Source: Hyphomonadaceae bacterium (GTDB taxonomy: Bacteria; Pseudomonadota; Alphaproteobacteria; Caulobacterales; Aquidulcibacteraceae). Taken from it: a stretch of 64,000 bases of DNA. Each line of letters starts with the position of its first letter. Position 1 is the first letter of the stretch. The notes under the pieces were generated by a model. The model was not told the origin of the DNA. It saw only the letters and a list, made by a program, of their open reading frames with translations, and ran no database searches. The stretch lies in contig JAIELK010000010.1 of the NCBI GenBank assembly GCA_019753175.1, forward strand, positions 1-64,000, in the 5' to 3' direction. The position numbers were made by a program, and so were the translations under genes. Shown piece by piece: positions 1,159-20,273 of the stretch.

Positions 1159-1185
1159 TTACGCAGCACTGCGCGAAACCCCTCA
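1159..1185 (-). promoter_or_regulatory. putative ECF-sigma promoter for the methyltransferase-DUF411 operon
   Basis: On the minus strand the site reads TGAGGGGT, 14 nt, CGTAA. It matches the motif in front of copA, cusF and the sigma operon, including the exact 14-nt spacer, with one mismatch in the -35 box. It is divergent from, and only about 12 bp from, the plus-strand copy at 1197-1223. It lies 44 nt before the TTG start at 1115. Confidence 0.6.
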
Positions 1186-1196
1186 CGCCGGTGCCT

Positions 1197-1223
1197 TGAG
1201 GGATTTGGGGAGAGTGTGCGTAT
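1197..1223 (+). promoter_or_regulatory. putative ECF-sigma autoregulatory promoter of the cnrYXH-like operon
   Basis: The sequence is TGAGGGAT, 14 nt, CGTAT, the same boxes and spacer found upstream of copA (5713) and cusF (9793). Transcription would start near 1230, which makes the ATG at 1229 unlikely as a start and supports the ATG at 1250. Control of a sigma operon by its own product is common for ECF systems; this is inferred from the shared motif only. Confidence 0.65.
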
Positions 1224-1249
1224 TGTTGATGGAACAAGAGTTGGAAACC

Positions 1250-1531
1250 ATGAACGCCAATCTTGAACGATTGCTTTCAGCGCTTCGCGAGCGTCCCCTC
1301 GATCGGGGACTGGACCAGTTGGAGCCCCGGGTTTGGGAGCGCATCGAAGCCGCAGGCATCGTTGTCGGGCCATCCCGCGCCTGGCGTTGGCAGGCGGGCC
1401 TTGCGGCGGCGATGCTGACGTTTGGGGCCTTTGCCGGCGGCGCCGCCACCGCCCGCACCGAGAGCGATTTCTCGCCCTTTGCGGTGCATGCGGCGTACGC
1501 GCCTTCAACCCTGCTCGGGGATGATCGTTGA
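1250..1531 (+). CDS. CnrY-like membrane anti-sigma factor
   Basis: A small protein of 93 aa with a soluble, charged N-terminal half (NLERLLSALRERPLDRGLD), one central hydrophobic segment (roughly WQAGLAAAMLTFGAFAGGAA, residues 48-67) and a short periplasmic tail. Length, single-helix topology and position match CnrY, the anti-sigma factor of the cnrYXH nickel/cobalt operon; sequence similarity alone would be weak. The in-frame ATG at 1229 is rejected because it coincides with the predicted transcription start; the ATG at 1250 has GGAA just upstream. The stop overlaps the TTG start of the next gene, which indicates translational coupling. Expected role: sequester the sigma factor at the membrane until the sensor responds. 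Confidence 0.65.
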   Translation: MNANLERLLSALRERPLDRGLDQLEPRVWERIEAAGIVVGPSRAWRWQAGLAAAMLTFGAFAGGAATARTESDFSPFAVHAAYAPSTLLGDDR

Positions 1532-1959
1532 GGTTTCGGAGCATTCTGCTCACAGCCTTGGTGGCGTTGGTTGCGGGCTTTGGCGGCGTCTGGCTAGGCA
1601 TGAAGGCGCTGGCGCCCGCGCCCGCCCTGTCCATGCACGATATCGTGCACCATCGGCTTGATCTGAGCGGCGAGCAGCTCGCCAGAATCGAGACGCTGGA
1701 AGCGGCGTTCGCCGCCCGCAAGCACGCGCTGGAACTTGAAATGCGCTCCGCCAACGCCGAACTGGCGGCGGCCATCCGCGAGGAGCATGAGAACGGCCCA
1801 AGGGTTGCGGCCGCCGTCGAGCGATTTCACGACGCCATGGGGCGGCTGCAGACCGAAACCATGACCCATATGTTTGCGATGCGCGAGGTCTTGAATAATG
1901 AGCAGAAGGCGATCTTCGACGATACCGTCGTCGAGACGTTGACCGCCGAGCCGCAATGA
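1528..1959 (+). CDS. CnrX-like periplasmic metal sensor (heavy-metal resistance / Spy-like family)
   Basis: The 143-aa product has an N-terminal membrane anchor (residues 5-28) and a helical periplasmic domain. All five ligands known for CnrX can be placed with the same spacing: H37 and H41 (MHDIVHH), E58, then H114 and M118 (THMFAMREVL). CnrX uses H42, H46, E63, H119 and M123. Here the metal signal is presumably passed to the anti-sigma factor encoded just upstream. The start is a TTG inside the previous stop codon (TTGA), preceded by GGGGATGA; the stop overlaps the ATG of the sigma gene (ATGA). Which metal it senses cannot be read from sequence; the surrounding genes argue for copper. Confidence 0.8.
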   Translation: MRFRSILLTALVALVAGFGGVWLGMKALAPAPALSMHDIVHHRLDLSGEQLARIETLEAAFAARKHALELEMRSANAELAAAIREEHENGPRVAAAVERFHDAMGRLQTETMTHMFAMREVLNNEQKAIFDDTVVETLTAEPQ

Positions 1960-2516
1960 GCGCCCCCTCGCCCGAAAGCGATGACGCATCGCTCGTGGCG
2001 GCGACGTTGGCGGGCGAGGAGAATGCCTTTTCCTTGCTGGTGCGCCGCCATAAAGAAAAGGTCTATCGCTTCGTGCGCTCCTACGTCGCCGATGCGGACG
2101 AAGCCTACGATCTCGCGCAAGAGGCGTTCGCCGCCGCGTGGAGCGCGTTGGCTCGCTACGACGCCGACCGTCCGTTTCCGGCCTGGATCAAGCGGATCGC
2201 CCTCAACAAATGTCGCGATTGGGCGCGCCGGCGCGCTGTCCGGCGTTTCTTCTTTGGCGCCGAGAGCATTGAGACGTCGCCAGACTTGCCGGCAACCATT
2301 GATCCAGACGATGAGGCCTTGCAACGAAACTTAAGTCGGCTCGATCAAGCCATTGCTGCATTGCCGGCCGGCCTCAAAGAGCCGCTGCTGCTGACCGCGA
2401 TTGACGGCATGAGCCATCACGATGCGGCGCGGGTGCTTCATTTGACGCCGAAGGCCGTCGAGACGCGCGTCTACCGCGCCAAGCTCGCGCTGTCACGCGC
2501 GCTCCGCGATGAATAG
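1956..2516 (+). CDS. ECF-type RNA polymerase sigma factor, CnrH-like
   Basis: The product (186 aa) contains sigma region 2 (ENAFSLLVRRHKEKVYRFVR, then DEAYDLAQEAFAAAW and FPAWIKRIALNKCRDWARR) and region 4 (LSRLDQAIAALPAGLKEPLL, DAARVLHLTPKAVETRVYRAK). Regions 1 and 3 are absent, as in ECF sigma factors. It is the last gene of an overlapping anti-sigma/sensor/sigma trio, the cnrY-cnrX-cnrH order. The likely targets are the promoters with the AGGGAT-N14-CGTA motif found five times in this island, including one in front of this operon. The 3' end overlaps the following AraC-type gene by 8 nt. Confidence 0.85.
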   Translation: MSAPSPESDDASLVAATLAGEENAFSLLVRRHKEKVYRFVRSYVADADEAYDLAQEAFAAAWSALARYDADRPFPAWIKRIALNKCRDWARRRAVRRFFFGAESIETSPDLPATIDPDDEALQRNLSRLDQAIAALPAGLKEPLLLTAIDGMSHHDAARVLHLTPKAVETRVYRAKLALSRALRDE

Positions 2517-3248
2517 CGCCGCCAAGTGGCGAGGCGCGGCCCGCATCGGACCGGCCTGGGCCGTCTTCCTGGGAGCAGCGGGCGACAATCAGCTGCACCG
2601 CCACCACGCCATTCAGGCGTTCGCCGGCCCTGGCGCGCTCATTGCGGACGCGAGCGGCGCATCTGGCGGCCCTGGATTTGTGGCGCCAGCTAATGTCTCC
2701 CATCGCGCAATAGCGGCGTATCCCAGCAGCTTTCTTTATATCGATCCCGACTGCGCATCAGGACGGCGGATCGCTGCCGCGATCAGGCATCGGATCACCG
2801 CGCTTTCCCCGCGCCAAGCATCGGATCTCGCCGCCATCGTCGAGAGTTCAATCACAGATGCAGACGCCGACCCGGCCGAGCGTCTGGCGATCATGTTGGG
2901 CGCAGCAGAGATCGCGCCAGCCCGCGACGCCCGCATTAGTGCGGCGCTCGCCGCCTTTCACGAGAGCGACGCTCCCCTTGAAGCGCGCGCACTCGCTCGC
3001 GCGCTCAAGCTCTCGCAATCGCGCGTAGCGCATCTCTTTCGCGATGAAGTCGGCGTCCCGATGCGTTCCTTCTTGCTTTGGTCAAAGCTCCGGCGCGCCT
3101 TTACCGGCATCGCGCAGGGGCTGTCGCTCACCGAGGCCGCACACCATGGCGGTTCGCCGATTCGGCGCACTTCTCGCGCACCTGCGCGCGCATCTTTGGC
3201 GCAAGCCCGTTCACCATCGCGAGCGCGGTGAAATTCGACGAAGCGTAG
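2509..3248 (+). pseudogene. AraC-family transcriptional regulator, frameshifted near its C-terminus
   Basis: The N-terminal part has a cupin-like sensor segment (HRHHAIQAF) and the C-terminal half an AraC double HTH (EARALARALKLSQSRVAHLF, VGVPMRSFLLWSKLRRAF). The frame breaks after TEAAHHGG at about 3155. One base further on, the expected continuation is present in another frame (FADSAHFSRTCARIFGASPF) and ends at a TAG at 3246-3248. Restoring one nucleotide gives a normal full-length protein of about 246 aa. Uncorrected, the product ends at 3231 with an unrelated tail. The gene follows the sigma factor with an 8-nt overlap. It is either a recent pseudogene or a sequencing error. Confidence 0.75.
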
Positions 3249-3305
3249 CTGTTTCGTTCAAGCATTTAACGTCCGGGCCGGCCAATTTGGCGCGAGGAGA
3301 CCTCA

Positions 3306-4113
3306 ATGCGCCTTGCCGTCTATCATCTGGCCTATCCCCTCATCATGGGAACCGTATTCATTGGCGCCGTAACGCTAGCAGCCTCGCCGAGCGCCGCGGG
3401 GGCGCTGCCGATCCTGACGCTTGCGGGCGTGCTCGCAGTTGGAGGACTGGAGGGGCTGTCGCCCTATCAGCAGGGCTGGACCAAGAACCACGGCGATCTC
3501 TTGGCCGACATCCAATACAATCTTATGGGCGCGGTCCTTGTTCAGAGCGGCGCTGTCGTTCGGACTTTGGCCCAGCACATGGCCGCTCTGGGCAAGCGTG
3601 CTCGGGGTCGGCGTCATCATCGATTTCGGACTCTATTGGATGCACCGCTGGAGCCATCGTTCGCCGCTTCTGTGGCGCTTCCATCAGCCACATCACAGTC
3701 CCGGGCGGCTTTATTGGCTGAACGGCGAGCGTCGTCACCTGGTGAGCGCCCTCATTCTGGCGACGCCTGGCCTCCTTGCCGCGGCGTTGCTTGGCGCGCC
3801 GCAGGCAGCGCTTGCCGGATGGTTTGCGATCCTGCCGGTGCATCTGGCCTTCCAGCACGCCAACGTCGATTATACACTGGGACCGTTGCGCCGCCTGCTG
3901 GGCGTCGCCGAGATGCATCGTTGGCACCACAAGCGCGACTACGAGGACGCGCAGGTGAATTTCGGCGAGGTCTTGCTTGTGTGGGATTGGCTGTTTGGCA
4001 GCCTTCACGACGCCCAAGGGAAAATCGAAAGCGGGGATTTGGGCTTGAGCGATGCGACTTATCCGAAGGGATATTTCGCCCAGCACGCGGCCCCGTTCGA
4101 CCCGCGGCGCTGA
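3306..4113 (+). pseudogene. sterol desaturase / fatty acid hydroxylase family protein, frameshifted
   Basis: The first segment (3306 to about 3583) encodes a membrane N-terminus (VYHLAYPLIMGTVFIGAVTL) and GLSPYQQGWTKNHGDLLADI. The second, in the next frame (to 4113), carries the His motifs of the integral-membrane di-iron hydroxylases: HRWSH, FHQPHH, HLAFQHANVDY and MHRWHHKRDYEDAQVNFGE. The two join around HMAAL / WASVLGVGVIIDFGLYWM near 3580-3590 with a net shift of one base (one extra base or two lost). Intact, it would be a protein of about 270 aa acting on a lipid or sterol in the membrane. As written it is broken, like both of its neighbours. Confidence 0.75.
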
Positions 4114-4186
4114 GCATGGTCGCTCTACCTTCAAGTTTCTGCGCGCACTCGACCATAACCGCGCTCGATTTCCATGGTCACGACCA

Positions 4187-4847: not shown

Positions 4848-5142
4848 GCAAACCGCCGTCCGTCTCAGACGATGTGGATGAGCGCACGATGACATCCGGT
4901 AGCCCGTCCGGCAGTTGGCGTGCCCGCGACAAGGCCTCTCGCGCGCACGTACAGCCTCCCTCCACTCGGCGACACGACCGGAATTCTTGGGGGCGCTCTC
5001 GCTGAAATGTTCGTCACCGTGCTGAATTCGGCGCAAACGCGGCGGCGCGCTTGTTCCCCCCGTGTCTCAACCGTGAGCACGCAGCGATCTTATAGGCAAT
5101 GGCGAACCGCGTGGGCGGCGGCAACCGCAATTTCGTTCGGGT
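4848..5142. other. intergenic stretch without a recognisable gene
   Basis: About 295 bp lie between the plus-strand methyltransferase remnant and the minus-strand NTF2-like gene. Short open frames exist on both strands (for example to 5162 on the plus strand), but none shows a family motif, a good ribosome binding site or a coherent composition. It may be decayed coding sequence, given the broken genes upstream. Confidence 0.4.
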
Positions 5143-5619
5143 TTAATTTGCTGGGGGCCTAGGAGCACGTGCAGACGAGTGATAAACAACGATGCGCCAC
5201 TCACCGCCGCGGCGCTGCAACACGCTGGTCGCGGCCCCGCGTCGCGAAATCGGCGCGCGCGCGACCGCTTCAGGGAACGTGATCTCGTAGGTGTAAACCT
5301 CGCTGGCGTAAGCGAGATCGCCGGCCACTTCGACATCGGTCTCAAGGCCATCAAAATCGAAACTGGCGATTTCGTGCAATTCTGGCCCCAAATGGTGGGC
5401 AAGATAGGTGGCGAAATCGCCTTCGACGCCGCCTTGTTCGAAGACCTGCGAGTCTGGCCAGAAATAGCGCGAGGCCGCCTCGCCGTCGCGGGCCTCGACC
5501 GCCTGCCGGTAACCTGAGAGGACCGCTTCCACAGCCGCCTCGTCAGCGCTGGGCTGGGCTGCCGCCGCGCCCGCCATGGCCCAAGCTGCGATTAAGACGA
5601 CGACCAATTTCTTCAACAT
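5143..5619 (-). CDS. exported SnoaL/NTF2-like protein (DUF4440-type)
   Basis: After a Sec-type signal peptide (MLKKLVVVLIAAWAMAGAAA) comes an NTF2-like fold: SADEAAVEAVLSGYRQAVEA, then RDGEAASRYFWPDSQVFEQG, and a C-terminal strand pair VLQRRGGEWRIVVYHSSARA. The typical product of this family is a small cone-shaped domain with a hydrophobic pocket; no catalytic residue can be assigned. I chose the ATG at 5619 because AAGGGGCAGG precedes it and the signal peptide starts there; the upstream ATG at 5643 has no Shine-Dalgarno sequence. It is divergent from copA. A weak match to the ECF motif precedes it. Confidence 0.75.
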   Translation of the reverse strand: MLKKLVVVLIAAWAMAGAAAAQPSADEAAVEAVLSGYRQAVEARDGEAASRYFWPDSQVFEQGGVEGDFATYLAHHLGPELHEIASFDFDGLETDVEVAGDLAYASEVYTYEITFPEAVARAPISRRGAATSVLQRRGGEWRIVVYHSSARAPRPPAN

Positions 5620-5712
5620 CCGCGCCTGCCCCTTTGCACTCATGTGTCTATTGCGTTTACGCGCCGGTTGCTGATTTCCCGCATCCTGGCGCCAATCTTG
5701 GGCGTACGCCTT

Positions 5713-5739
5713 TGAGGGATCGGGCGGGAGCGCGCGTAT
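5713..5739 (+). promoter_or_regulatory. putative ECF-sigma promoter of the copA operon
   Basis: TGAGGGAT, 14 nt, CGTAT: identical boxes and spacer to the copies at 1197 and 9793. The predicted leader to the copA GTG start at 5781 is about 35 nt. No other good promoter is evident in the 160 bp between the divergent genes. Confidence 0.65.
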
Positions 5740-5780
5740 CCTAAGATACTGTCGGGTTATTCTCAGACTGGAGCAAACGC

Positions 5781-7571
5781 GTGCGCAAGGCCATCGACCG
5801 TCGATCGCTACTGAAGGCTGCGGGCGCAGGAGCCGGCTGGCTCGCGCTTGAGAGCATGCTGCCCGCTTGGGCGCAGACGGGTTCGCCCGGTATTGCGCCC
5901 GCCATGACGACCTTGGCGGGTCCCGATGTGGCCCTGAGCATTGGCCATTCGCCCTTCACGGTGGGCGGGAGAACGGGCCACGCGGTGACGATCAACGGCA
6001 CGCTACCGGCGCCGCTGTTGCGCTTGCGAGAAGGTCAGAACGTGCGTCTCGCGGTCACCAACACGCTAGAGGAAGACACCTCGATCCATTGGCATGGAAT
6101 CCTGCTTCCCTTCCAGATGGATGGCGTGCCAGGCGTCAGTTTTCCTGGCATCCGTCCTCGCGAGACCTTCGTCTATGAATTCCCTATCATTCAGGCAGGC
6201 ACGTTTTGGTACCACAGCCATTCGGGCCTGCAGGAAGCGTTAGGCCATTACGGGCCTCTCATCATCGATCCGGCCTCGCGTGATCCGGTCGAGTACGACC
6301 GCGAGCACGTGCTCGTGCTGTCGGACTGGAGTTTCACCCATCCGCACCAAATTCTGGCGCGTCTCAAGCAAAGCCCCGGCTATTTCAATTATCAACGCAC
6401 GACGGTGGCGGGCCTTCTTTCAGGCGAAGACCGCATGAGCGCCGCCGACCGGCGCATGTGGGCGGAAATGCGCATGGACCCGCGCGACATTTCCGACGTG
6501 ACCGGTTCAACCTACACCTATTTGATCAATGGCCACGGACCGGCCGAAAACTGGACGGGTTTGTTCCGCCCCGGCGAGCGCGTGCGGCTGCGCATCATCA
6601 ACGCCTCGGCCATGTCGATCTTCAACGTGCGCATTCCAGGACTGGCCATGACTGTCGTCCAAGCCGACGGCGAGAATGTGCGCCCGGTTGAAGTGGACGA
6701 GTTCCAGATCTCCGTTGCTGAAACCTACGACGTCCTCGTCACACCACGCGAGGACCGCGCGTATACGATCGTGTCAGAATCGATCGATCGCTCAGGTATG
6801 GGGCGCGCCACGTTAGCGCCGCGGCTTGGCATGAGCGCGGAGGTCCCGCCATTGCGCGAAGTCCCCAATCTCACCATGCGCGACATGGGCATGGACATGG
6901 GCGGCATGGCGGGGATGAACCATGACATGTCAGGTATGGACCATTCCGGCATGGACATGAGTGGTATGCCAATGAGCGCAATGGATCATGCGGCGAGCGG
7001 GCACGGCGCCATGAATATGCGCGATCCCGAAAACGCCCCCCCTGACATGGCGGTCGGCGTCGGCGTCCAGACCGTTTCGCCGATGCCCGCGAACCGCATG
7101 GGCGAGCGTCCGCTTGGGCTCGAGAACGTCGATCACCGCGTGCTTGTCTATTCTGATCTCATCGCGCTCGCGCCCAACCGCGATCAGCGACCCCCGACGC
7201 GTACAATGGAAATCCATCTCACCGGCAACATGGAGCGCTTCATGTGGGGCTTCGATGGCCGACGGTTTAGCGAATTGGTCGAGCCGATACGCTTCGAACG
7301 CAATGAGCGCGTGCGCGTCACGCTCGTCAACGACACCATGATGTCGCATCCCATTCATTTGCACGGCCACTTCTTCGAATTGGTCAACGGCCACGACGGG
7401 CATCAGCCATTGAAGCACACAGTCAATGTGGCGCCCGGCAGCAAAGTGACATTCGATCTCACCGCCGACAACCCGGGCGATTGGGCATTCCATTGCCACC
7501 TGCTGCTGCACATGCATGCTGGCATGTTCAATGTGGTGACCATCCGTCCGCTCGACGGAGATGTGTCGTGA
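5781..7571 (+). CDS. copA: multicopper oxidase CopA, copper resistance
   Basis: A 596-aa periplasmic multicopper oxidase. It has a Tat signal (DRRSLLKAAGAGAG), then three cupredoxin domains. Copper-site motifs are complete: HWHG (103-106), WYHSHSG (144-149), HPIHLHGHF (523-531) and HCHLLLHMHAGM (571-582). The PcoA/CopA family oxidises Cu(I) to less toxic Cu(II). A Met/His-rich insert (about residues 366-412, repeats such as MGMDMGGMAGMNHDM) fits Cu(I) binding. The start is a GTG; CTGGAG lies about 9 nt upstream. The stop overlaps the copB GTG start (GTGA). It is the first gene of a copper operon behind an ECF-type promoter motif. Confidence 0.95.
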   Translation: MRKAIDRRSLLKAAGAGAGWLALESMLPAWAQTGSPGIAPAMTTLAGPDVALSIGHSPFTVGGRTGHAVTINGTLPAPLLRLREGQNVRLAVTNTLEEDTSIHWHGILLPFQMDGVPGVSFPGIRPRETFVYEFPIIQAGTFWYHSHSGLQEALGHYGPLIIDPASRDPVEYDREHVLVLSDWSFTHPHQILARLKQSPGYFNYQRTTVAGLLSGEDRMSAADRRMWAEMRMDPRDISDVTGSTYTYLINGHGPAENWTGLFRPGERVRLRIINASAMSIFNVRIPGLAMTVVQADGENVRPVEVDEFQISVAETYDVLVTPREDRAYTIVSESIDRSGMGRATLAPRLGMSAEVPPLREVPNLTMRDMGMDMGGMAGMNHDMSGMDHSGMDMSGMPMSAMDHAASGHGAMNMRDPENAPPDMAVGVGVQTVSPMPANRMGERPLGLENVDHRVLVYSDLIALAPNRDQRPPTRTMEIHLTGNMERFMWGFDGRRFSELVEPIRFERNERVRVTLVNDTMMSHPIHLHGHFFELVNGHDGHQPLKHTVNVAPGSKVTFDLTADNPGDWAFHCHLLLHMHAGMFNVVTIRPLDGDVS

Positions 7572-8689
7572 GATTTTTCGCCGCCACCCTCACTCCGCTC
7601 GTCTTGTCGTTTGCAAGTCCCGCGCTTGCTCAGTCGACCGATCACTCCGCGCATCAACAAGCGACGCCGCAAGCTGAGGAACAAGTCGAGACGCCGGCTG
7701 ATCCCCAGGCCACGTCCGCGCCTGACCCGCACGCCGGTCACAGCATGACCATGCCGCAGGCCACAACGCCTGACCCAAGCGCTGGTCATGAAACGCCCGG
7801 CATGACTACGCCCCCGGCGTCCTCGCCGGACCCACATGCCGGCCACGATATGCCGGGCATGCAAATGAATTGGCCCGGAAGTGTGCCCGAGAGCGCCGCC
7901 ATGCCGAACATTGAGACGAGCGCGGACAATGACGGGCGCCCGCCGGAAGCGCCCGCGCCGACGGCCGCAAGCGAAGGACCAGCGCACGCCGCCGATCTTT
8001 TCTTCGATCCAGCACAAATGGCCGCGGCGCGTGAACAATTGCTCGCCGAGAACGGCGACATCCGCACCAGCGTCGTCATCATCGACCGCCTTGAGGCGAC
8101 GTTTGGCGAGGGGGCGAATGGATATGTCTGGGATGCGCAAGGCTGGTATGGCGGCGACATCCATCGCTTCTGGTGGAAGAGCGAAGGCGAAGGCGCGATC
8201 GATGGCGAACTCGAGACCGGGGAGGTTGAGGCGCTCTACAGCCGGGCGTTCACGCCCTATTTCGATTTTCAAGCAGGCGTTCGTCAGCGCTACACGCCCG
8301 AAGCTGACCGCACCGATCTCGTCGTTGGCGTGCAAGGTCTCGCGCCCTATTGGTTCGAGGTTGATGTCGCTGCATTCTTGTCAAATAAAGGCGAATTGAG
8401 CGCGCGCGCCGAAGCCGAATATGACTTGCGCCTGACGCAGCGTCTCATCCTGCAGCCGCGCGCGGAAATCACTCTGTCGGCCGAAGACGTTCCCGAACTC
8501 GCGATTGGCTCTGGGCTAACCAGTGCGGAGCTTGGCGTGCGCTTGCGCTATGAGATTCGGCGCGAATTCGCGCCCTATGTCGGGATCGAATGGTCAAGCA
8601 GCTTCGGCGATACGCGCGATTACGTTGAAGCGAGGGGCGAAGACGCGGAAGGCGCGCGTCTGGTCTTGGGCGTCCGCGCCTGGTTTTGA
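7568..8689 (+). CDS. copB: copper resistance outer membrane protein CopB
   Basis: The 373-aa product has a signal peptide (VRFFAATLTPLVLSFASPAL ending near ALAQ) and a Met/His/Pro-rich N-terminal region with repeated DPHAGH and GMTTP / GMQM segments (about residues 20-115). The C-terminal CopB beta-barrel domain follows (WDAQGWYGGDIHRFWWKSEG, RAFTPYFDFQAGVRQRY, ending in LGVRAWF with a terminal Phe). CopB/PcoB sits in the outer membrane and works with CopA. The GTG start overlaps the copA stop, so the in-frame ATG at 7481 inside copA is not used. Confidence 0.93.
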   Translation: MRFFAATLTPLVLSFASPALAQSTDHSAHQQATPQAEEQVETPADPQATSAPDPHAGHSMTMPQATTPDPSAGHETPGMTTPPASSPDPHAGHDMPGMQMNWPGSVPESAAMPNIETSADNDGRPPEAPAPTAASEGPAHAADLFFDPAQMAAAREQLLAENGDIRTSVVIIDRLEATFGEGANGYVWDAQGWYGGDIHRFWWKSEGEGAIDGELETGEVEALYSRAFTPYFDFQAGVRQRYTPEADRTDLVVGVQGLAPYWFEVDVAAFLSNKGELSARAEAEYDLRLTQRLILQPRAEITLSAEDVPELAIGSGLTSAELGVRLRYEIRREFAPYVGIEWSSSFGDTRDYVEARGEDAEGARLVLGVRAWF

Positions 8690-8709
8690 CGCTTTCAGAG
8701 GGAACAAAG

Positions 8710-8994: not shown

Positions 8995-9054
8995 GATGCG
9001 CGGCGTCATTAGGACCGCGACGATGTAGAAAGAAGAAGAAACTTGGGGGACACC

Positions 9055-9795
9055 GTGAATCTCGCGCGCTTGGCGTCGTTCGTACATAAATGGCTTGCGC
9101 TGCTCGTCGGCGTGCAAATCGTCTTCTGGGTCGTAAGCGGCCTTTTCTTCACGATCATCCCGATCGAACAGATTCGCAGCGAACACCTCATCCGCCCGCC
9201 TGAGACGGCGCGTCCGCTCGCCATCGCGAACGGCGCAGCTCTAAGTGAGCTTCGCGACTTTCAGGGCCGAGCGCCCGTCAAGGTGACTATCGAGACGCGA
9301 CCCACGCTCGGGCAAGTCATCGTCGCCGAGTTCGCCGACGGACCGCCGGCGCTGTTCGAGGCGGCCACACTTCGTCAGCTTTCGCCGCTCGACGCGGACG
9401 CCGCCGCCGCCGTGGCGCGCGGGCATGTGACGCTGGCGTCGCCACCGGCCCGCGTCGAACTGATTGAGACGGAAAGCTCAGAATATCGCGGCGCCTTGCC
9501 TGCATGGCGCGCCCAGTTCACCGATGGCGGCTTGGCGGTTTATGTCGCCGCCAATACTGGCGCGGTGACCGCCCGGCGCTCCGATATGTGGCGGCTCTAT
9601 GATACGCTCTGGGCGCTTCACATCATGGACTGGCAGAACCACGAGGATTTCAATCATCCGCTCATCATCATCGTCACCGCCATCACGCTTTTGTCGATAA
9701 TCGCCGGCGTCGTGCTTATCCCCTACCGCATCCGGTTCGGAGGCGGCCGGCGGCGCAAGAACGGGCCTGCGGCCAGCGCCGCAGCGGACGGCTGA
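9055..9795 (+). CDS. PepSY-associated transmembrane protein
   Basis: The 246-aa product has an N-terminal membrane helix (WLALLVGVQIVFWVVSGLFF, residues 13-32), a periplasmic PepSY-like domain with PAWRAQFTDGGLAVYVAANT, and a C-terminal helix after the conserved segment DTLWALHIMDWQNHEDFNHP (ITLLSIIAGVVLIPYRI). Proteins of this family often accompany metal or redox enzymes in the inner membrane. The GTG at 9055 is preferred over the TTG at 9043 because GGGGGA lies just before it. A degraded copy of its C-terminus occurs at 20282-20434. The 3' end overlaps the next promoter motif. Confidence 0.8.
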   Translation: MNLARLASFVHKWLALLVGVQIVFWVVSGLFFTIIPIEQIRSEHLIRPPETARPLAIANGAALSELRDFQGRAPVKVTIETRPTLGQVIVAEFADGPPALFEAATLRQLSPLDADAAAAVARGHVTLASPPARVELIETESSEYRGALPAWRAQFTDGGLAVYVAANTGAVTARRSDMWRLYDTLWALHIMDWQNHEDFNHPLIIIVTAITLLSIIAGVVLIPYRIRFGGGRRRKNGPAASAAADG

Positions 9796-9819
9796 GGGAT
9801 TGACCAGAAGCGCGCGTAT
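9793..9819 (+). promoter_or_regulatory. putative ECF-sigma promoter in front of cusF
   Basis: TGAGGGAT, 14 nt, CGTAT, the third exact copy of this layout in the island. It starts inside the stop codon of the PepSY gene and would give an internal transcript for cusF and the DUF2231 gene. The region GCGCGCGTAT is also identical to the copA site. Confidence 0.65.
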
Positions 9820-9864: not shown

Positions 9865-10197
9865 ATGAAAGCCAAACTTCTGGTCGGTGCAATCGCTGCA
9901 GCGATGGTGTCGAGCTTCGCCATGACCGCCCCCGCCTTGGCGCATCAGGGCGAACAGCATGAGGCGGTCCCACAGACTGCCGAAGGCGAAGGCACGGTGA
10001 CCGCCATTGATGCGCAAGCCGGCACCGTCACGCTCAATCACGGCCCAATCGCCAGCCTGGGCTGGCCGGCGATGACGATGACGTTCCGCGTTCACTCGGC
10101 CTCGGTGCTGCAAGGCGTGAGCGTTGGCCAGCGTGTTCACTTCGAGCTGATGAACGACAACGGCCGCCCGATGGTGTCGGAAATCCACGTGCTCTGA
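9865..10197 (+). CDS. cusF: CusF-like periplasmic copper-binding protein
   Basis: The 110-aa product has a signal peptide (to about ALAHQ) and a CusF domain: GEGTVTAIDAQAGTVTLNHG, then the metal-binding core GWPAMTMTFRV and SVGQRVHFEL. The Trp and two Met residues in WPAMTM are those that bind Cu(I)/Ag(I) in CusF, and the His of LNHG precedes them. CusF shuttles periplasmic Cu(I) to the CusCBA pump. GGAGAA lies upstream of the ATG. Two further CusF domains occur in the island, at 13543-13881 and at the end of CusB. Confidence 0.9.
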   Translation: MKAKLLVGAIAAAMVSSFAMTAPALAHQGEQHEAVPQTAEGEGTVTAIDAQAGTVTLNHGPIASLGWPAMTMTFRVHSASVLQGVSVGQRVHFELMNDNGRPMVSEIHVL

Positions 10198-10262: not shown

Positions 10263-10949
10263 ATGGCGACGAAGAAGCCGATGGCCCACATTGCGGCGAT
10301 GCTGGCGTTAGCGTTTTCGCTGCTGCTGCTGACCCCTCAAATCTCTTTCGCCCACAGAGGTGAAGAACATCCCCCGCAAGCGACGCAAGCCGACGAGGCG
10401 CAAACCGCGCCCGAACACGACATGGGCGCGATGCAGCCCGGCGAAATGATGTGGCCGACCGCCGAAGGCACGGGCGGGATGATGATGGATCATGATGCGC
10501 GGCCGGCGACCCTGTCGGGCCGCATCATCCGCTGGCTTGGCGTGTGGCACCCTGCGGTCATCCATTTTCCCATCGCCTTGCTGTTGACCGTCGGATTCTT
10601 GGAGGCGGCGGCAGCCATCCGCCGCAAGCCCCTCTACGCGGCCAGCAACAAAATCCTTCTTGCTGTCGCGACGTTGGGCGCCTTCGCCGCAGCCCCATTG
10701 GGTTGGGCGAACGCGGGACTTCCAGCCGCTAACGATGAATCTGCGCTCGTGCTGCATCGCTGGATCGGCACCGCAATCCCCTTCCTCATCATGTTCGTCT
10801 GGTGGCTCAAGAAGCCGGTTGACGACGCTGCGGTGCGCCTAGGCGGGCCGCTCTATGAAATCACGCTTGCGCTCACAGTGCTGGTGATCCTCGGCCAGGC
10901 CTATCTAGGCGCTGAAGTCACCCATGGCGCTGGGCACTTGGCGTTCTGA
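10263..10949 (+). CDS. DUF2231 membrane protein with His/Met-rich periplasmic N-terminus
   Basis: The 228-aa product has an N-terminal signal or anchor helix, a His/Met-rich segment (EEHPP, EHDMGAMQPGEMMW, GGMMMDHD, residues 35-80) and a DUF2231-type four-helix membrane region beginning at the conserved WHPAVIHFPIALLLTVGF, with LHRWIGTAIPFLI and a last helix near YLGAEVTHGAGH. DUF2231 proteins are of unknown biochemical function but recur in copper-resistance and cytochrome contexts; the conserved His residues suggest metal or haem binding. GGGAGGGGAAC precedes the ATG. Confidence 0.8.
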   Translation: MATKKPMAHIAAMLALAFSLLLLTPQISFAHRGEEHPPQATQADEAQTAPEHDMGAMQPGEMMWPTAEGTGGMMMDHDARPATLSGRIIRWLGVWHPAVIHFPIALLLTVGFLEAAAAIRRKPLYAASNKILLAVATLGAFAAAPLGWANAGLPAANDESALVLHRWIGTAIPFLIMFVWWLKKPVDDAAVRLGGPLYEITLALTVLVILGQAYLGAEVTHGAGHLAF

Positions 10950-11426: not shown

Positions 11427-11429
11427 AGC

Positions 11430-11939
11430 TCAGGGCCGCTCGTGCATGGGTCTGTCGCACGCCATCGCATCGGCGATCGCCTTCTGCTCGGTGCTCAACG
11501 ATCCATACAAAGACGCAAGCGCAGCGCGAAGATCATGAAGTGCCGCAAGATGCGTCGACATCATCGTTTCATGATGCTGAAGACGCTGAGGCAGCGGCAT
11601 GGCGCCCATGGAGCCCATGGAGCCCATGGAGCCCATTCCCATTGAAGACGCAGTCCGGCGATAGGCGTCGGCGTACGTCGCCCAGAGCGCCTCCTGCGCA
11701 CCGGTGATGCGCAGCGTTGCGTGCAAGGACGCCAAGCGCGCGTCAACGCTTCCGGTGGCGCCTGGGCATCCGACCATCGGTCCCATCGACATCATCATGC
11801 CGCCACCGTGCATCATTCCGCCTTCATGCTGCATGCCGGGTTGATGCCCGGCCATGGCGCCGCCAGGGGCGCTAGCGCACGCACCGGTGACAAAGCTGAG
11901 CGCTGCAACCACCAGAACGCGGGTAAAGGTGATACGCAT
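11430..11939 (-). CDS. Spy/CpxP-like Met/His-rich periplasmic lipoprotein
   Basis: The 169-aa product has a lipoprotein signal (VVAALSFVTGAC, Cys21) and a His/Met-rich region (HQPGMQHEGGMMHGGGMMMS). A helical domain with two LTxxQ-like elements follows: LRITGAQEALWATYADAYRR and LSTEQKAIADAM. Such proteins act as ATP-independent periplasmic chaperones or metal sensors (Spy, CpxP, CnrX/ZraP relatives). A tandem GSM repeat lies at residues 100-112. It is the first gene of a two-gene operon with the DUF302 protein. Confidence 0.78.
   Translation of the reverse strand: MRITFTRVLVVAALSFVTGACASAPGGAMAGHQPGMQHEGGMMHGGGMMMSMGPMVGCPGATGSVDARLASLHATLRITGAQEALWATYADAYRRTASSMGMGSMGSMGSMGAMPLPQRLQHHETMMSTHLAALHDLRAALASLYGSLSTEQKAIADAMACDRPMHERP
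11605..11631. repeat. 9-bp tandem repeat inside the Spy-like gene
   Basis: Three exact tandem copies of cccatggag (11605-11613, 11614-11622, 11623-11631), with degenerate units on both sides, encode the SMG repeats of the protein. The unit length is a multiple of three, so copy-number change would keep the frame. Confidence 0.85.
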
Positions 11940-13412: not shown

Positions 13413-13542
13413 TCGGGCGCTAGCTGCGCCGCTCCAGGGTCTGCTTCATGGCGTCGATTTCGCGGCGCCGGCGCTAGAATCCGCGTCTGCCCTTCACTGA
13501 TAATACGCAGGCCGCGGGCGCGCCCAGCGACGCCCGCCCAAT

Positions 13543-13881
13543 TTATTGCTTGCGCACCGCCGTCACGATTGTGCTTTCGCGCGCGCTCTTCAGTTCAAAG
13601 CGGACGCGATCGCCTACGGCCAGACCTTGAAGGATTGAAGGATCATCGGCGCGGAACTGCATGGTCATGGCGGGCCAATTGATCGCGGTGATCGCTTCAT
13701 GGTCGAGCGAAATCGTGCCCGCGGCAGGGTCGACCGCGGTGACTACACCTACGCCCTCGATCGCCGCCGTGGCTGCGTTAGGCGCCTCGGCTGCGGGGAC
13801 CGACTGGTCAACAGCGGGCGGCGCCGGCGAACAAGCCGCGAGCAGGCTCGCGAGCGTGGCGGAGGCAATAATCGTCTTCAT
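13543..13881 (-). CDS. cusF: CusF-like copper-binding lipoprotein
   Basis: The 112-aa product has a lipobox (ASLLAACSP, Cys17), an acidic/Ala-rich linker and a CusF domain with the copper-binding core [14 protein letters not shown] preceded by ISLDHEAI. It is the last gene of the minus-strand cus operon; its ATG overlaps the cusA stop by 4 nt. Membrane tethering near the CusCBA complex would favour direct Cu(I) hand-off (inference). Confidence 0.88.
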
Positions 13882-16800
13882 GTCTGTTCTCCTAGAATGG
13901 GACCGATCCGTTGCGCCGAGCGCGCATGTTCACGCTCGAGTTCGCGGCGCCGGATCATCAGATACGCCGCGGGAATGACAAGCAAAGATAAGAGCGGCGC
14001 CGAGAGCATGCCGCCAACCAGCGGGGCCGCGATCCGGCGCATCACCTCAGCGCCGGCCCCGCCCGTGAACAGGATCGGCAAGAGCCCCGCCATGATGACG
14101 GCGACCGTCATCGCCTTGGGGCGGAGGCGCAAAAGCGCGCCCTCGCGAACGGCGTCGGCGATGATTTGCGGTGTCAGCACGACGCCGCTCTCGATGCGTT
14201 CCTTGAGCGCGTTACGCAGATAGACAAGCATCACAACGCCAAACTCGGCGGCGAGCCCCGCGAGCGCGATAAAGCCCACCGCCACGGCGACAGAGAAATC
14301 ATAACCAAGGAGATAGACGAACCAGATCCCCCCGATCAGCGCGAACGGCAAGCTCGCCATGACGATCAACGCCTCATCGAAGCGTCGAAAAGTGAAATAG
14401 AGCAGGAGCAATATGATCGCGATCGTCGCCGGCCCCACGATTAGCAGCCGCTGGCTGGCGCGGGCGAGATATTCAAATTGCCCGGAGTAAGCGACGCTCA
14501 CGCCCGCCGGCAATTGCGCGCCAGCGACCGCTTCACGCAGATCGCCGACAACGGAGGCGAGGTCGCGGTCGCGCACGTCCACATAGACGAAGGCCGAGAG
14601 GCGGCCGTTCTCGCTGCGGATCATCGCTGGGCCATCGGCAATGGTGAGACGCGCCACTTCGCCCAGTGTCAGGCGCAAGCCCTGGTCGGTAATAACCGGC
14701 AGCGCGATCAAGGCCTCAAGCGAATCCCTAATCTCTCGGGGATAACGGAGATTGATGGGATAGCGGGCGCGGCCATCGATCACTTCGCCGATATTTTCCC
14801 CGCCTATCGCGCCCGACACCAAGGCCTGGACGTCTTCGACATTGAGCCCGTAGCGGGCGGCGGCGAAACGATCGATATCGACATTAATGTAGCGCCCTCC
14901 GGAGACGCGTTCGGCCACGGCGGACGATACCCCCGGCACGTCGCGTGCGACTTGTTCAATCGCGCGCGCGGCGGCGTCGATCGCGGCCAGGTCGGGCCCG
15001 CTCACCTTGACGCCAATGGGGCTCTTTATGCCGGTCGCCAACATATCGATCCGGTTACGGATCGGCGGCACCCAGACATTGGTCAAACCCGGCACGCGCA
15101 CAGCGCGATCGAGTTCTTCGATGATGCGCTCGGGCGTCATGCCGGGACGCCATTCAGATCGTGGCCGCAAGCGAATAGTGGTCTCAAACATCTCGAGCGG
15201 CGCGGGATCGGTGGCGGTCTCGGCCCTGCCCGCTTTACCAAACACGCTTTCGACCTCGGGTACGGTGCGGATGAGGCGGTCGGTTTGCTGCAAGAGTTCG
15301 GAGGCCTCCGCCGCCGACAAGCCGGGCAGCGCCGTCGGCATGTAGAGCAAATCGCCTTCATCCATCATCGGCATAAATTCGCCGCCAATGCGCGAGAGGG
15401 GCCAGGCGGTCGTCGCCAGAGCCAGAGCGGCGATGAGCAGCACGGTCTTGGGCGCCCCGAGCGCGAAATCAATCGCGGGCTGATAGAGCGCCGCAAGCCA
15501 GCGATTGATCGGGTTTGCGTCCTCGTGCGGGATGCGGCCGCGAATCCAATAGCCCATCAGCACCGGCGTCAGCGTCACCGCAAGCGCAGCGGACGCGGCC
15601 ATCGCATAGGTCTTGGTGAAGGCGAGCGGCGCGAACAAGCGTCCCTCCTGCGCTTCGAGCGTGAACACCGGCAGGAACGAGAGCGTGATGATGAGCAGGC
15701 TGAAGAAGAGCGCCGGCCCCACTTCCACAGCGGCATCGGTGATGACGCGCCAGTGATCGCCGCCTTGCGGCATCTCGCCATCATGGGCGTCACGCCAGCG
15801 TTCCAGTTTTTTGTGGGCATTCTCGATCATGACAATGGCCGCATCGACCATGGCGCCGATGGCGATGGCAATGCCTGAGAGCGACATGATATTGGCATCG
15901 ACGCCCTGTAACCGCATGACAAGGAAAGCCGCCATGACGCCAAGCGGCAAGGTGACGATGGCCACGAGCGCCGAGCGTAAATGAAACAGGAAGAGCGCGC
16001 ACACGAGTGCGACGACGATGAACTCTTCGGCGAGCTTACTGGTGAGGTTTTCGATAGCGCGATCGATAAGTCGCGAGCGATCATAGGTGGTGACGATCTC
16101 GACGCCCTCGGGCAAGCTTCGCTCGATTTCGCTGAGACGCTCGCGCACGGCGGCGATGACGGCGCGCGCATTCTCGCCGGCGCGGATCACCACCACGCCG
16201 CCAGCGACTTCGCCCTCGCCGTTCAACTCGGCGACGCCGCGACGCATTTCGGGCCCGATCTGCACCCAGGCGACATCGGAAAGACGCACCGGCGCGCCGT
16301 TAGCCCCGAGGCCCAGCGGAATGGCGTCAAAATCCTCGAGCGTGCGCAAATAACCGGAGGCGCGCACCATGTGCTCGGCCTCGCCCATCTCGACAACGCC
16401 CCCGCCCGCTTCGCCATTGGCGGCGCGAACGGCTTCGGCGATTTGCTGCTGTGAGACGCCATAGGCGGCCATCCGCTCGGGATCCAAGACGATCTGGTAT
16501 TGGCGAACCATGCCGCCAATCGAGGCGACTTCGGCGACGCCCGGCACGCTCTTCAGTTCGAACCGCAGCAGCCAATCCTGCAGGCTGCGCAATTGGCCAA
16601 GGTCATGGCGGCCGGTGCGATCCACCAGCGCATATTGATAGACCCAGCCGACACCGGTCGCGTCTGGTCCCAGTGAAGACCGCGCCGAGGGCGGCAAGCG
16701 GCCCTGCACTTGGTTGAGATATTCGAGCACGCGCGAGCGCGCCCAATAGAGATCGGTTCCGTCCTCAAAGATCACGTAGACGAAGGAATCCCCGAAGAAG

Positions 16801-17057
16801 GAATAGCCGCGCACAGTGCGCGCGCCCGGCACTGACAACATCGTGGTCGTTAGCGGATAGGTGACCTGGTCTTCAACGATCTGCGGCGCCTGACCTGGAT
16901 AGGACGTGCGGATGACCACCTGGACGTCGGAGAGGTCGGGTAGCGCATCGACCGGCGTCGAGCGCACCGCGAGCGCGCCAGCGACCGCGAGCGCCAAGGT
17001 CGCCAGCACAACAAGCAGCCGGTTAGCTACCGACCAGCGGATGAGAGCGCCGATCAT
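13878..17057 (-). CDS. cusA: Cu(I)/Ag(I) efflux RND pump subunit CusA
   Basis: A 1059-aa HME-RND transporter of standard length. It starts [20 protein letters not shown], with the periplasmic porter region [20 protein letters not shown] and the TM4 signature [20 protein letters not shown], which is the HME4 (Cu/Ag) type rather than the Zn/Co type. A second half repeats the fold ([20 protein letters not shown]) and ends with the usual C-terminal helix. It uses proton import to drive metal export through the CusB-CusC channel. It overlaps cusF and cusB by 4 nt each. Confidence 0.95.
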
Positions 17058-18535
17058 GGACGCGCTCCGGTCTTTTCAATCTCCGTGACGATGTAAGTTT
17101 GACCGTCTTGCCTGAAGCGGAAGCTGACGGCGTCACCTGTTCTGAGACCACGCGCGAGCGCTTCGTCCCGCAATCGAAACTGCATCGTCATGGCGGGCCA
17201 ATTGAGGCTCGTGACCGCGCCGTGCGCAATGGAGATGTTGGCGCCGTCAAGCGCGGCGATGCGGCCTTGGGCTTCGTGCGTCGCGCCCACTTGGCCCGGT
17301 TGACCCTGCGCCGATGTCTCCAAGCGCTGAAGCGCCCCCGATAGGCTCGCTTCGGAATCGATGAGGAACTGGCCCGACGCTACGACCCGCTGCCCTTCCA
17401 CAAGCCCACTGCGAATTTCGATGCGATCGTCCGCGCGCCGGCCGAGCTCGACTTCTGTCGGCGCAAAGCGATTGTCTTCGAGCGCAACGATGACAACGGT
17501 GCGCCGCCCGGTTTGAATGACCGCTTCAGCAGGAACCACGAGCGCCGTTTCGGCGCGCGCGGCGGCGAGTTCAACCTCGGCTGTCATGCCCGGCCGCAAG
17601 CGCATGTCCGAATTGGAGAGCGCAACCCGCACCTCAATTGTGCGCGTCGCCGCATCGGCGGACGGCAGCACGGTCTCGATGCGGCCAGCAAAGCTTTCGC
17701 CGGGATAGGCCGGAACGCGCGCCACGACGCGTCCGCCCCGCTCGGCGACACCCGCATCCGCCTGCGGCAACGACGCGATGAGCCACACCGGCGACATGGC
17801 GTTGATGGTCGCCAGCGGCGCGCCCTGCATGATCGTCATGCCAGGGCGAATGTCGAGCGCCGTAATGGCGCCTGCGACAGGCGCGGTGATCGTCGTGACC
17901 GGACGCGGACGTCCCTCACGTTCGATGCGTTCAATCAGCGATGCCGGCATGCCCAGCATCGCAAGACGCTGGCGCGCTGCCAGAGCCAGATCGCCTCCTG
18001 CCTGGCGAAGCGCTAGATACTCCGCTTGCGCGGCGGTCCATTCGGGCATGCGCACGTCAACGATCGGCGACCCAGCCGAAACGACATCGCCGACAACACG
18101 GCCGTATCCCCGTTCGACAAAGCCCCCGGCGCGCGCCTGTACGACAGCCAGATTGCGTTCGTTAAAGGCCAGGACCCCGGCCGCGCGCACGCTGCGCGTC
18201 AGCGGCGCGCTTTCGACCGATGCCAGCCGCACGCCGAGGTTCTGAACCACGCCGGGTTCGATGCGCACGCTCGCATCACTTGAGATTTCGTCGGCGTAGC
18301 GCGGGATGAGTTCCATCCCCATCGACGATCTGCCAGGCCCCGGATAACGCTCGTTGGGGAGCATCGGATCGTACCAATAGGCGATCTCGCGGCCCGCCTG
18401 GGATTCAGCGCCAGCGGGGCTGCGGCTCGCGCCCAGCCAATAGCCGCCCGCGCCGATCGCCAACGTCCCGGCGATGATCGCGCCCAACAGCGCAACGCGG
18501 CGCGTCCTGAGCATAGGCTTCTGCGCTTCGGTCAT
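17054..18535 (-). CDS. cusB: CusB membrane fusion protein with C-terminal CusF domain
   Basis: A 493-aa periplasmic adaptor. The N-terminus has a membrane helix and a heavy-metal-binding motif ([20 protein letters not shown], about residues 53-72). The HlyD-like core follows ([40 protein letters not shown]). Residues about 423-493 form a fused CusF-like domain with [20 protein letters not shown]. Adaptor-CusF fusions occur in other bacteria and place the chaperone next to the pump. It overlaps cusC and cusA by 4 nt. Confidence 0.93.
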
Positions 18536-19752
18536 GGCGCGTTCTCCGTAAAGGGCAGCGTGAGCGCCGCGCCGACGAGCGCGCGGCGTTCTTCCAGGTC
18601 GATCAGTTCAAGTTCAGCCTCGACAGCCTCGCGGCGCGCCGCGATCACGTCGGCCGTGCTCGCGGCGCCCGCGGCGAAACTCCCCCGCACGGCTTCGGCG
18701 CGCTGGCGCGCCAATGGCAGGCGCGTGTCGCGAGCGCGCGCGAGATTGGCGTCGAGCGCCGCGTACTGCGCAAGCGCCGTTTCGAGCGCCGCGCGCTGAG
18801 CGCGTAGCGCCGCCGCGCGCTCGCCCTGCGCGCGCGCTTGCTCGGCGCGTCGCGACTCGATCAGCGGCCCCTGCCGCCAGGCTTGAAACAAGGGGAGGCC
18901 AATGCGGACTTCCACCGAGGCCATGTCGCCGAAATCGCGTTCGCGGTTTTGATACATGAGCGATAAGGACCAGTCCGGGGCGCGCTCGGCGCGCGCCATG
19001 TCCAGGCCCGCTTCGCTCGCGGTTTCCTCCGCAAAGAACGCCGCCAGCACCGGATGGGCCGCCAGCTGGGCGCGAAGTTCGTCGCCTTTGACATGAAACG
19101 CCGGCGCCTCGCCTGTGATCGCGCCCTCGCCCGTCCAACGCCGAAGCTCAGCACGTTCGGCAGCAAGCGCCGCCTCGGCGTCGGCGAGCCGGTCGCGCAT
19201 GCGGGCTGCGTCGATTTCGGCGGCGATGGCGTCATTTGCGCTGCCGGCGCCGCCCGCCAAGCGCGCGCGTGAGGCGGCCGCGAGCGCGGTTGCTTCGGTT
19301 TGGATCGACTGCAGCGCCGCCAACCGGCGTTCGGCGTAATGAACGCCAAACCAAGCCTGCGCCGCGCCCAGGCGGGCTTCCAGTTCGGCGACGCCAAGCA
19401 TCGCGTCAGCGCGCACGACATCGGCCTCGGCCATCTGGCGTCGCGCGCGCCGCTCGGCGCCCGAGGGCATGTCCTGCATAATGCCGACCGTACGCATGGT
19501 CATGAAATCGCGATCGAACCGATAGGCGTCAGGCCCCTCGACAGGCACGTTCTCCAATCCAAGCACCAATTGCGGGTCGGGCAATTGGCCAGCCGGACCG
19601 ACAGCGCGGTCGGCGGCGAGCCGGCCGGCCCTGCCCGCTTCAACGCTCGGCGATTGAGCCGCGCGCGCGAGCGCGTCGGCGAAACTCATGTCTTGGGCAT
19701 GTGCGACCGGACTTATGCCGATGACGCAGCACGCCAGCCAAAAGGCGCGCAT
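18532..19752 (-). CDS. cusC: TolC/CusC-like outer membrane efflux protein
   Basis: The 406-aa product has a signal peptide (to HAQ, about residue 20) and two outer-membrane-efflux repeats rich in Ala, Arg and Glu heptads (DPQLVLGLENVPVEGPDAYR, VGIMQDMPSGAERRARRQMA, IGLPLFQAWRQGPLIESRRA). It has no acylated cysteine, unlike E. coli CusC. It forms the outer channel for CusBA and is the first structural gene of the operon on the minus strand, about 80 bp downstream of the small Cys/Met protein gene. Confidence 0.88.
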   Translation of the reverse strand: MRAFWLACCVIGISPVAHAQDMSFADALARAAQSPSVEAGRAGRLAADRAVGPAGQLPDPQLVLGLENVPVEGPDAYRFDRDFMTMRTVGIMQDMPSGAERRARRQMAEADVVRADAMLGVAELEARLGAAQAWFGVHYAERRLAALQSIQTEATALAAASRARLAGGAGSANDAIAAEIDAARMRDRLADAEAALAAERAELRRWTGEGAITGEAPAFHVKGDELRAQLAAHPVLAAFFAEETASEAGLDMARAERAPDWSLSLMYQNRERDFGDMASVEVRIGLPLFQAWRQGPLIESRRAEQARAQGERAAALRAQRAALETALAQYAALDANLARARDTRLPLARQRAEAVRGSFAAGAASTADVIAARREAVEAELELIDLEERRALVGAALTLPFTENAP

Positions 19753-19833
19753 GGGCGTAGTGCTCCTGATCCCTGCTGACGAGAAGCGCGCGGGCGCGCG
19801 AGAGCGCGGCGCCCGAAGCGCGCAAGTACGGGG

Positions 19834-20184
19834 TCAGGTGGTTCGCGGCGGCCGCCAGAAGTCGTCTGGCGCGGTCGATGGGAAGCGTTGCTCTAGGACA
19901 GGGGCGACGCGCAACGCGCTTGGCGTTGCTGGCGCTGATGCCCGCGCCTCGACTGCCGCGACCGCCGGACCCGCTCGGCACGCCATCGCCATGGCGCAGT
20001 CCGACATTTGTTTGGACGGCTGATCGCTGGGCGCCGCGGGCCCATCGTCGGGGCAGCAATCGTGGTTGAAGGCGCCAGCCTCCGCCGCAGCAAGCATCGG
20101 GCAATCCGCGCGCACTATGGCGTTCGCCACCCCGGCGAAGCCAAGCGCGATAACCATAAGCAAGAAAAGCCAAATACGGCCCAT
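19834..20184 (-). CDS. small exported Cys/Met-containing protein preceding the cus operon
   Basis: The 116-aa product has a signal peptide (MGRIWLFLLMVIALGFAGVA). The mature part carries a Cys/Met/His cluster (DCPMLAAAEAGAFNHDCCPD, then MSDCAMAMAC) that could bind copper, and a C-terminus rich in Ala, Pro and Arg. It resembles the short Cys-rich exported proteins found beside copper pumps, but I recognise no named family. The start is at ATG 20184; the frame stays open upstream, but the signal peptide and GGGGAG place it here. The ECF-like promoter lies 63 nt upstream. Confidence 0.7.
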   Translation of the reverse strand: MGRIWLFLLMVIALGFAGVANAIVRADCPMLAAAEAGAFNHDCCPDDGPAAPSDQPSKQMSDCAMAMACRAGPAVAAVEARASAPATPSALRVAPVLEQRFPSTAPDDFWRPPRTT

Positions 20185-20246
20185 TGCGGGACAACGCTCC
20201 CCTTTGCGCGGAAGCTCAAGAGATTTCGCCAATACTCCTACTACAG

Positions 20247-20273
20247 TTACGCAAGAGGCGGGCCGATCCCTTG
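20247..20273 (-). promoter_or_regulatory. putative ECF-sigma promoter of the small Cys protein-cusCBAF operon
   Basis: On the minus strand the site reads CAAGGGAT, 14 nt, CGTAA. The AGGGAT and CGTA cores and the 14-nt spacer are those of the copA, cusF and sigma-operon sites. It directs transcription toward 20184 and cusC. Confidence 0.55.

Follow-up and report, generated by a model that had tools for sequence, protein, structure and literature searches.

A probable CnrYXH-type sigma factor relay sharing a promoter motif with copper-resistance genes in a Hyphomonadaceae bacterium

Introduction

Two-component systems of the CopRS and CusRS types control cop and cus genes, the same kind of target as that addressed here: the copper genes in the first 20 kb of a 64,000-nucleotide stretch (below, the window) from a Hyphomonadaceae bacterium of the order Caulobacterales (GenBank assembly GCA_019753175.1, contig JAIELK010000010.1, positions 1 to 64,000). 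The genome differs from those controlled in that manner by having no CopS-family kinase above the family cut-off (0 of 27 matches). Its copper genes share a promoter motif with an operon of three genes, here called Y, X and H, related to the CnrYXH relay of Cupriavidus. We consider it highly probable that these 20 kb form a copper-defence island under a transmembrane relay of the CnrYXH type.

In the CnrYXH relay, metal on the sensor CnrX loosens the grip of CnrY on the sigma factor CnrH, and Met123 of CnrX is required for signalling (excerpts of PMC7689651). Our locus resembles CnrYXH and NccYXH of Cupriavidus in the order and overlaps of the genes, in a CnrX-family sensor with five ligands, in a sigma factor whose nearest relative of solved structure is CnrH, in the GAGGG and CGTAT promoter boxes and in the presence of the motif before its own operon. 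It differs from them in what stands under the motif, namely copAB, cusF and probably cusCBA instead of the nickel-cobalt efflux genes cnrCBA(T) targeted in Cupriavidus, in a promoter spacing shorter by one nucleotide with G rather than C before CGTA, and in an H group separate from CnrH. CorE of Myxococcus xanthus, a copper-dependent sigma factor of the extracytoplasmic function (ECF) type, is likewise tied to a multicopper oxidase and copper export genes, but senses copper via a Cys-rich C-terminal extension (excerpts of PMC10141476), whereas H (186 aa, one Cys) ends with region 4 and is accompanied by a separate periplasmic sensor, X. SigF-NrsF of Caulobacter crescentus, from the same order, also has an ECF regulon induced by copper; that regulon, however, comprises DUF692, DoxX and sulfoxide reductase genes, and PcoAB is not among the members named in the excerpts of PMC8224329.

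Relay Genes

The genes follow one another in the order Y-X-H with overlaps (Table 1), as in CnrYXH relays. The best matches of X among solved structures are NccX and CnrX, and that of H is CnrH (117 bits, the next best reaching 80.6 bits). Residues H37, H41, E58, H114 and M118 of X align with H42, H46, E63, H119 and M123 of CnrX (a numbering that, Met123 apart, we presume to be correct), so that the residue corresponding to the signalling Met123 is conserved. Among 45 aligned relatives of X four of the five ligand positions never vary; the first His is nearly invariant, being replaced by Asp in a diverged second copy, X2 (see below), and in locus L113. The predicted membrane span of Y (49-67, against 46-64 in CnrY) is weak (Kyte-Doolittle value 1.39), and its N-terminal segment is conserved among orthologues; its length, single span and C-terminal AP/SP-xxLL-G tail resemble those of CnrY, with no sequence similarity between the two. 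A tree of H placed CnrH apart from the alphaproteobacterial H group (support 95/81). As the two other sigma factors of the same genome used as outgroup have long branches and the root is unsure, we make no claim as to which metal is ancestral.

Promoter Motif in the Window and the Genome

The initial annotation had reported five copies of a motif ahead of the YXH operon and four copper-related units. All five were recovered in position and strand; they are spread over 19.1 kb, each aimed towards a gene start, with exactly 14 nucleotides between AGGGRT and CGTA. The pattern AGGGRT-N14-CGTA has 6 exact matches in the window versus 0.04 expected from shuffles (none of 100 shuffles reached 6), an enrichment that is partly circular, the motif having been derived from the window itself, unlike the tests in other genomes described below. 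The scan of the whole genome (3,132,801 bases) that the initial annotation had called for returned 7 exact matches versus 2 for a reversed-pattern control. The sixth match in the window, at 33160-33183(-), lies antisense within a truncated transposase reading frame. This match and C14:46454, i.e. 2 of the 7 in the genome, were not counted as regulon promoters and are probably background, because both lack a conserved G before CGTA and the former falls in a transposase remnant.

That G is present in 74 of 77 distinct exact sites, among which further positions outside the search pattern are conserved, namely [T/C]G before AGGG, [T/C]G before CGTA and mostly T after it. From these flanks the motif was refined to YGAGGGRT-N12-YGCGTAT. 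A related site absent from the initial annotation, GGGAA-N14-CGTA at 5658-5680(-), faces the SnoaL/DUF4440 gene divergent from copA, and the relaxed motif precedes 6 of 8 related SnoaL genes (e.g. in L132, L134-L136 and L138). The weakest of the five sites is 20247(-), which has A in place of G before AGGG. The gene that it precedes, cysP, was found together with the site only in G107 (L217) among six congeners examined (L212-L217); in L090 no site stands upstream of a CysP relative.

Motif and Copper Genes in Near Relatives

A search of 299 genomes of the order for X gave 141 matches, spread over 106 genomes. From the top of this list we took 59 regions (1.07 Mb in all) centred on X, leaving out L068, which holds only the paralogue X2. 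In these regions AGGGRT-Nk-CGTA occurred 0, 0, 2, 0, 80, 2, 0, 0, 1 and 0 times for k from 10 to 19, i.e. 80 times at spacer 14. The exact motif, and in brackets the relaxed form GGGRN-N14-CGTA, was present upstream of 25 (36) of 51 copA genes, 14 (43) of 59 Y genes, 9 (13) of 24 best CusF matches, 5 (10) of 32 DUF411 genes, 3 (4) of 28 PepSY genes and 0 (1) of 13 cusC genes. The exact form also preceded the methyltransferase gene in 4 of the 10 relatives having it, and no motif was seen upstream of H (0/58), CopB (0/46) or AraC (0/17) in the same regions. Eight of the 59 regions lack copA, among them two short contigs and two regions (L091, L120) with copA just outside their limits. A wider set was drawn from named genomes and plasmids; its 83 loci (three plasmid loci and the best 80 of 287 relatives, many in the same genomes as the 59 regions) included a tested copper gene in 81 cases, CopA in 69 and the exact motif in 65.

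As a control, 20 copA promoters were picked by hand from genomes without X, most of them ranking high among the CopA matches and two belonging to the window's genus. None of the 20 carried the exact or the relaxed motif, nor did any of four X-less copA promoters within the genus (two of them also among the 20). In this test of related genomes, of the kind that the initial annotation had proposed, the relaxed form stood before 36 of 51 copA genes in X regions versus 0 of 20 in genomes without X. Within the genus, genomes with X (n = 17) had 5.9 motifs on average versus 1.5 in those without (n = 13), while the reversed control gave 4.1 versus 3.5 (p 0.43). It counts against our reading that the p-values obtained (Fisher 4.6e-5 and 1.4e-8 for the exact and relaxed forms at copA, 4.6e-5 for the genus) are too small, given the shared ancestry of related genomes, which makes them non-independent, and the incomplete draft state of several congeners without X.

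Comparison with cnr Promoters

On pMOL28 of C. metallidurans, transcription starts have been mapped at 53286 (cnrYp) and 54660 (cnrCp); both promoters are termed non-RpoD, with nickel induction under CnrH, and an RpoD promoter is also present upstream of cnrY (excerpts of PMC9045368). In the pMOL28 sequence each of the two starts is preceded by AGGG at -33 and by a CGTATA whose CGTA lies at -12. The GAGGG (cnrCp) or AAGGG (cnrYp) and CGTATA boxes at these mapped starts match the boxes of the window motif, and the same boxes recur in a second betaproteobacterial cnr locus (G548). The spacing is different: anchored on GAGGG before CGTAW, the 59 regions had 121 sites at N16 (113 with G before CGTA), 11 at N17 and 10 at other spacings, and 11 alphaproteobacterial loci from outside the order had 28, 4 and 2, respectively (34 sites), whereas the betaproteobacterial GAGGG sites were at N17 with C before CGTA in 3 of 3 cases (the AAGGG of cnrYp is not matched by this anchor). 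Such a one-nucleotide change of spacing, together with the adjacent base, could insulate the alphaproteobacterial and cnr branches from each other.

Distant Members and Loci outside the Order

The tie to copper is strong among near members and thins among distant members of the order. In 60 more distant X regions CopA scored above 200 bits in 31, and any tested copper gene was present in 48. Some of the weak CopA matches in these regions (30-34%) may represent multicopper oxidases of another kind. In genus g15 four loci (L303, L305, L306 and L309) have relatives of X (43-45%) and H (40-41%) and a conserved GGGGA-type site with no tested copper gene, and likely have a different target.

In wider samples X was detected at 1e-8 in 17 of 398 genomes of the phylum and 6 of 289 of the class, in a search biased towards alphaproteobacteria by a profile built mostly from their sequences. 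At the alphaproteobacterial loci sampled outside the order, CopA was present in the fetched stretch in 11 of 11, and the motif stood just before it in 7 of 11 (in L273 the copA start lies beyond the stretch). A weak match, L283 (G857; 5e-10), was not recovered by tblastn and was excluded from the 11. The sole betaproteobacterial locus sampled has cnrCBA after H, 75-88% identical to CH34. The co-occurrence of motif, sensor and copper genes extends over Hyphomonadaceae, Caulobacteraceae and sphingomonads. An X relative is also present in 78 plasmid records, mostly from sphingomonads, of which 40 are predicted conjugative and 5 are from Cupriavidus. One genome, G107, contains three X loci with copA (L076, L079 and L080), two of them (C22, C23) mutually similar, plus copies of the X2 type; its locus L218 (G107:C12:75000-90000) has four motif-like sites, and none of the queried window proteins match there.

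A broader proposition is that CnrX-type sensors are mainly copper sensors, forming a large alphaproteobacterial branch that takes the place of CopRS in copper defence, with the same five-ligand site and a promoter shorter by one nucleotide, the nickel/cobalt relay of Cupriavidus being a small sister branch. We regard this as tentative and somewhat short of an even chance, a little lower than we had put it before, because of the thinning of the copper tie.

Proposed Relay and Alternative Explanations

The claim of the initial annotation that a CnrYXH-type relay drives a copper regulon is supported, because X and H are homologous to CnrX and CnrH, the promoter boxes are cnr-like and the motif tracks the sensor and the copper genes; its two remaining elements, the reading of the promoters by H and the role of copper, as opposed to nickel or cobalt, as the signal for X, we infer. 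By analogy with CnrYXH, from which the release mechanism is carried over by homology, X would be anchored in the inner membrane and bind a metal ion in the periplasm, and its partner Y would hold H at the membrane. Metal binding would release H, which would join RNA polymerase and direct transcription from YGAGGGRT-N12-YGCGTAT promoters. The predicted targets are its own operon, copAB, cusF-DUF2231, methyltransferase-DUF411 and the SnoaL-like gene, with cysP-cusCBAF as a less certain addition. With good confidence we read the data as best explained by a branch of the CnrYXH family that is wired to copper.

Several observations weigh against it. Y has no family or BLAST match, and a BLAST comparison of Y with CnrY gave nothing. 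No relaxed motif precedes 15 of the 51 copA and 16 of the 59 Y genes of the near relatives; in the genome itself the relaxed form has 16 matches (6 of them within the island) versus 20 in the control, and is therefore unfit to define a wider regulon. The alphaproteobacterial promoters have one nucleotide less between their boxes than the cnr promoters, and the cnrY start at 53286 is tagged 'Pub, RpoD' in a later paper (excerpts of PMC11647585), so that its sigma assignment is not fully clean. Among the distant regions, 12 of 60 have no tested copper gene, and the motif (GGGRW form) is within 330 nucleotides of copA in only 13 of the 31 with a strong CopA.

The identity of the metal is where our reading is most open to dispute. 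The relay and promoter may be real, with X answering nickel, cobalt or several metals and the copper genes being part of a wider periplasmic defence. X keeps all five CnrX ligands, and CnrX binds cobalt and nickel tightly (excerpts of PMC7689651), a further point against copper, and the sequence of X therefore does not settle the metal; the window also carries a CnrA-like cluster of the resistance-nodulation-division (RND) type at 23487-29259, and, as said, some distant X loci are without a copper gene. We nevertheless consider a wider-metal role unlikely, as the named regulon genes are copper genes and the window pump most similar to CnrA (26080-29259; 49.5% identical, without the CusA methionines) has no motif nearby, even in the relaxed form. 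The same is true of L282, where a CnrA-like pump adjoins copA and the motif is found only at copA and at the unit divergent from YXH. The RND pump behind 20247(-) is of the CusA type, with methionines in LLYMP, APLEM and NRIDM that we take to be the copper triad as in E. coli CusA. A copper-bound structure of CnrX has reportedly been obtained, binding not being equal to signalling.

The promoters might instead be read by a paralogous sigma factor, H2 (contig C39, 46% identical), or by H and H2 both. An H2-Y2-X2 set is present in the same genome and several congeners, a look-alike AGGGCT-N14-CGTA stands upstream of Y2, and X2 lies by cusCBA in G222; motif loci occur, however, in genomes where X has one match only (e.g. 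G102, G182 and G048), and we find this option rather improbable. That the motif is a binding site for an activator or a two-component regulator at copper genes, and not a sigma promoter, has in its favour its place near copper operons, which are often under CopRS. The fixed spacing and orientation, the match to the cnr promoters, the absence of the motif from X-less copA promoters and that of a CopS above the cut-off make this a very improbable explanation. Chance repetition in GC-rich DNA could draw only on the relaxed pattern not being enriched genome-wide; it is refuted by the excess over shuffles in the window and the spacer-14 peak in relatives (80 versus 0-2 at other spacers), which leave it a negligible probability.

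A literature search by titles and abstracts found no paper tying a CnrYXH-type relay to copper genes, although the main ECF reclassification paper was not covered and a prior mention there is possible. RefSeq annotates as neighbours a periplasmic heavy metal sensor, an RNA polymerase sigma factor and a copper resistance multicopper oxidase, so the neighbourhood is already visible in public records. The metal selectivity of periplasmic sensors has been studied closely in CnrX; a copper-wired branch with the same ligands, if confirmed, would let this selectivity be dissected by residue swaps between natural sensors. It would also represent a further route of control of bacterial copper resistance beside CopRS and CorE, and one found on plasmids.

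Genes of the Island and Neighbouring Features

Family searches upheld the names previously given to the methyltransferase, DUF411, CopA, CopB, CusF, DUF2231 and CusA genes (Table 1).

Table 1. Relay genes, motif sites and genes under the motif in the window
Feature	Position	Strand	Evidence or remark
Promoter motif of methyltransferase-DUF411	1159..1186	-	exact motif; predicted start ~1151
Promoter motif of YXH	1197..1223	+	exact motif; predicted start ~1231, projected from cnr promoters
Related motif GGGAA-N14-CGTA	5658..5680	-	relaxed form recurs in relatives
Promoter motif of copAB	5713..5739	+	exact motif; predicted start ~5747
Promoter motif of cusF-DUF2231	9793..9819	+	exact motif; predicted start ~9827
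Promoter motif of cysP-cusCBAF	20247..20274	-	exact motif, weakest of five; predicted start ~20239
Y, putative anti-sigma factor (CnrY position), 93 aa, single span	1250..1531	+	length, span, tail
X, periplasmic metal sensor, CnrX/NccX homologue	1528..1959	+	PF13801 2.9e-15; NccX 4clv 3e-14; CnrX entries
H, ECF sigma factor, CnrH homologue	1956..2516	+	CnrH 4cxf 7.5e-33
DUF411 protein, cut by contig end at window start	1..387	-	PF04214 4.6e-25
Class I methyltransferase	405..1115	-	PF08241 3.4e-20
SnoaL/DUF4440-like protein	5143..5643	-	PF14534 9.3e-11
CopA multicopper oxidase	5781..7571	+	TIGR01480 830 bits, cut-off 479
CopB, coordinates of the listed open reading frame; probable true start ~7571	7481..8689	+	PF05275 3.9e-89
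CusF-like protein	9865..10197	+	NF007348 2e-15, under its cut-off
DUF2231 membrane protein	10263..10949	+	PF09990 1.3e-8
cusC, cusB, cusA and second CusF-like gene	13543..19752	-	CusA TIGR00914 1326 bits
CysP, small Cys-containing protein	19834..20184	-	no Pfam match; 83% identical orthologue in L217

A gene of the LTXXQ family (11430-11939), Met-rich and with MGS in tandem repeats, stands between the cusF unit and the cusCBA unit and has no motif of its own. A second metal cluster follows at 20585-29259, comprising an EamA transporter, a MerR regulator, a cation diffusion facilitator and the CnrA-like RND pump, also with no motif.

The Second Relay

The diverged relay (L068, G000:C39, 2900-4437) consists of X2, in which Asp replaces the first His ligand, Y2 and a divergently oriented sigma gene, H2; it adjoins an acetate kinase gene and another ECF gene. 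Since X2 is located about 7 kb from X in relatives, C39 probably neighbours the left end of the window. A suspected P-type ATPase and copper-storage-like protein on C39 were upheld in part: a HAD hydrolase domain was found, and two reading frames, one over the suspected ATPase and one near (not over) the suspected storage protein, gave no Pfam match. In L334 (G222:C104) the neighbours of an X2-type sensor are cusCBA and a gene for CusF, and Y2 is preceded by a motif-like site; X2 may also be copper-linked.

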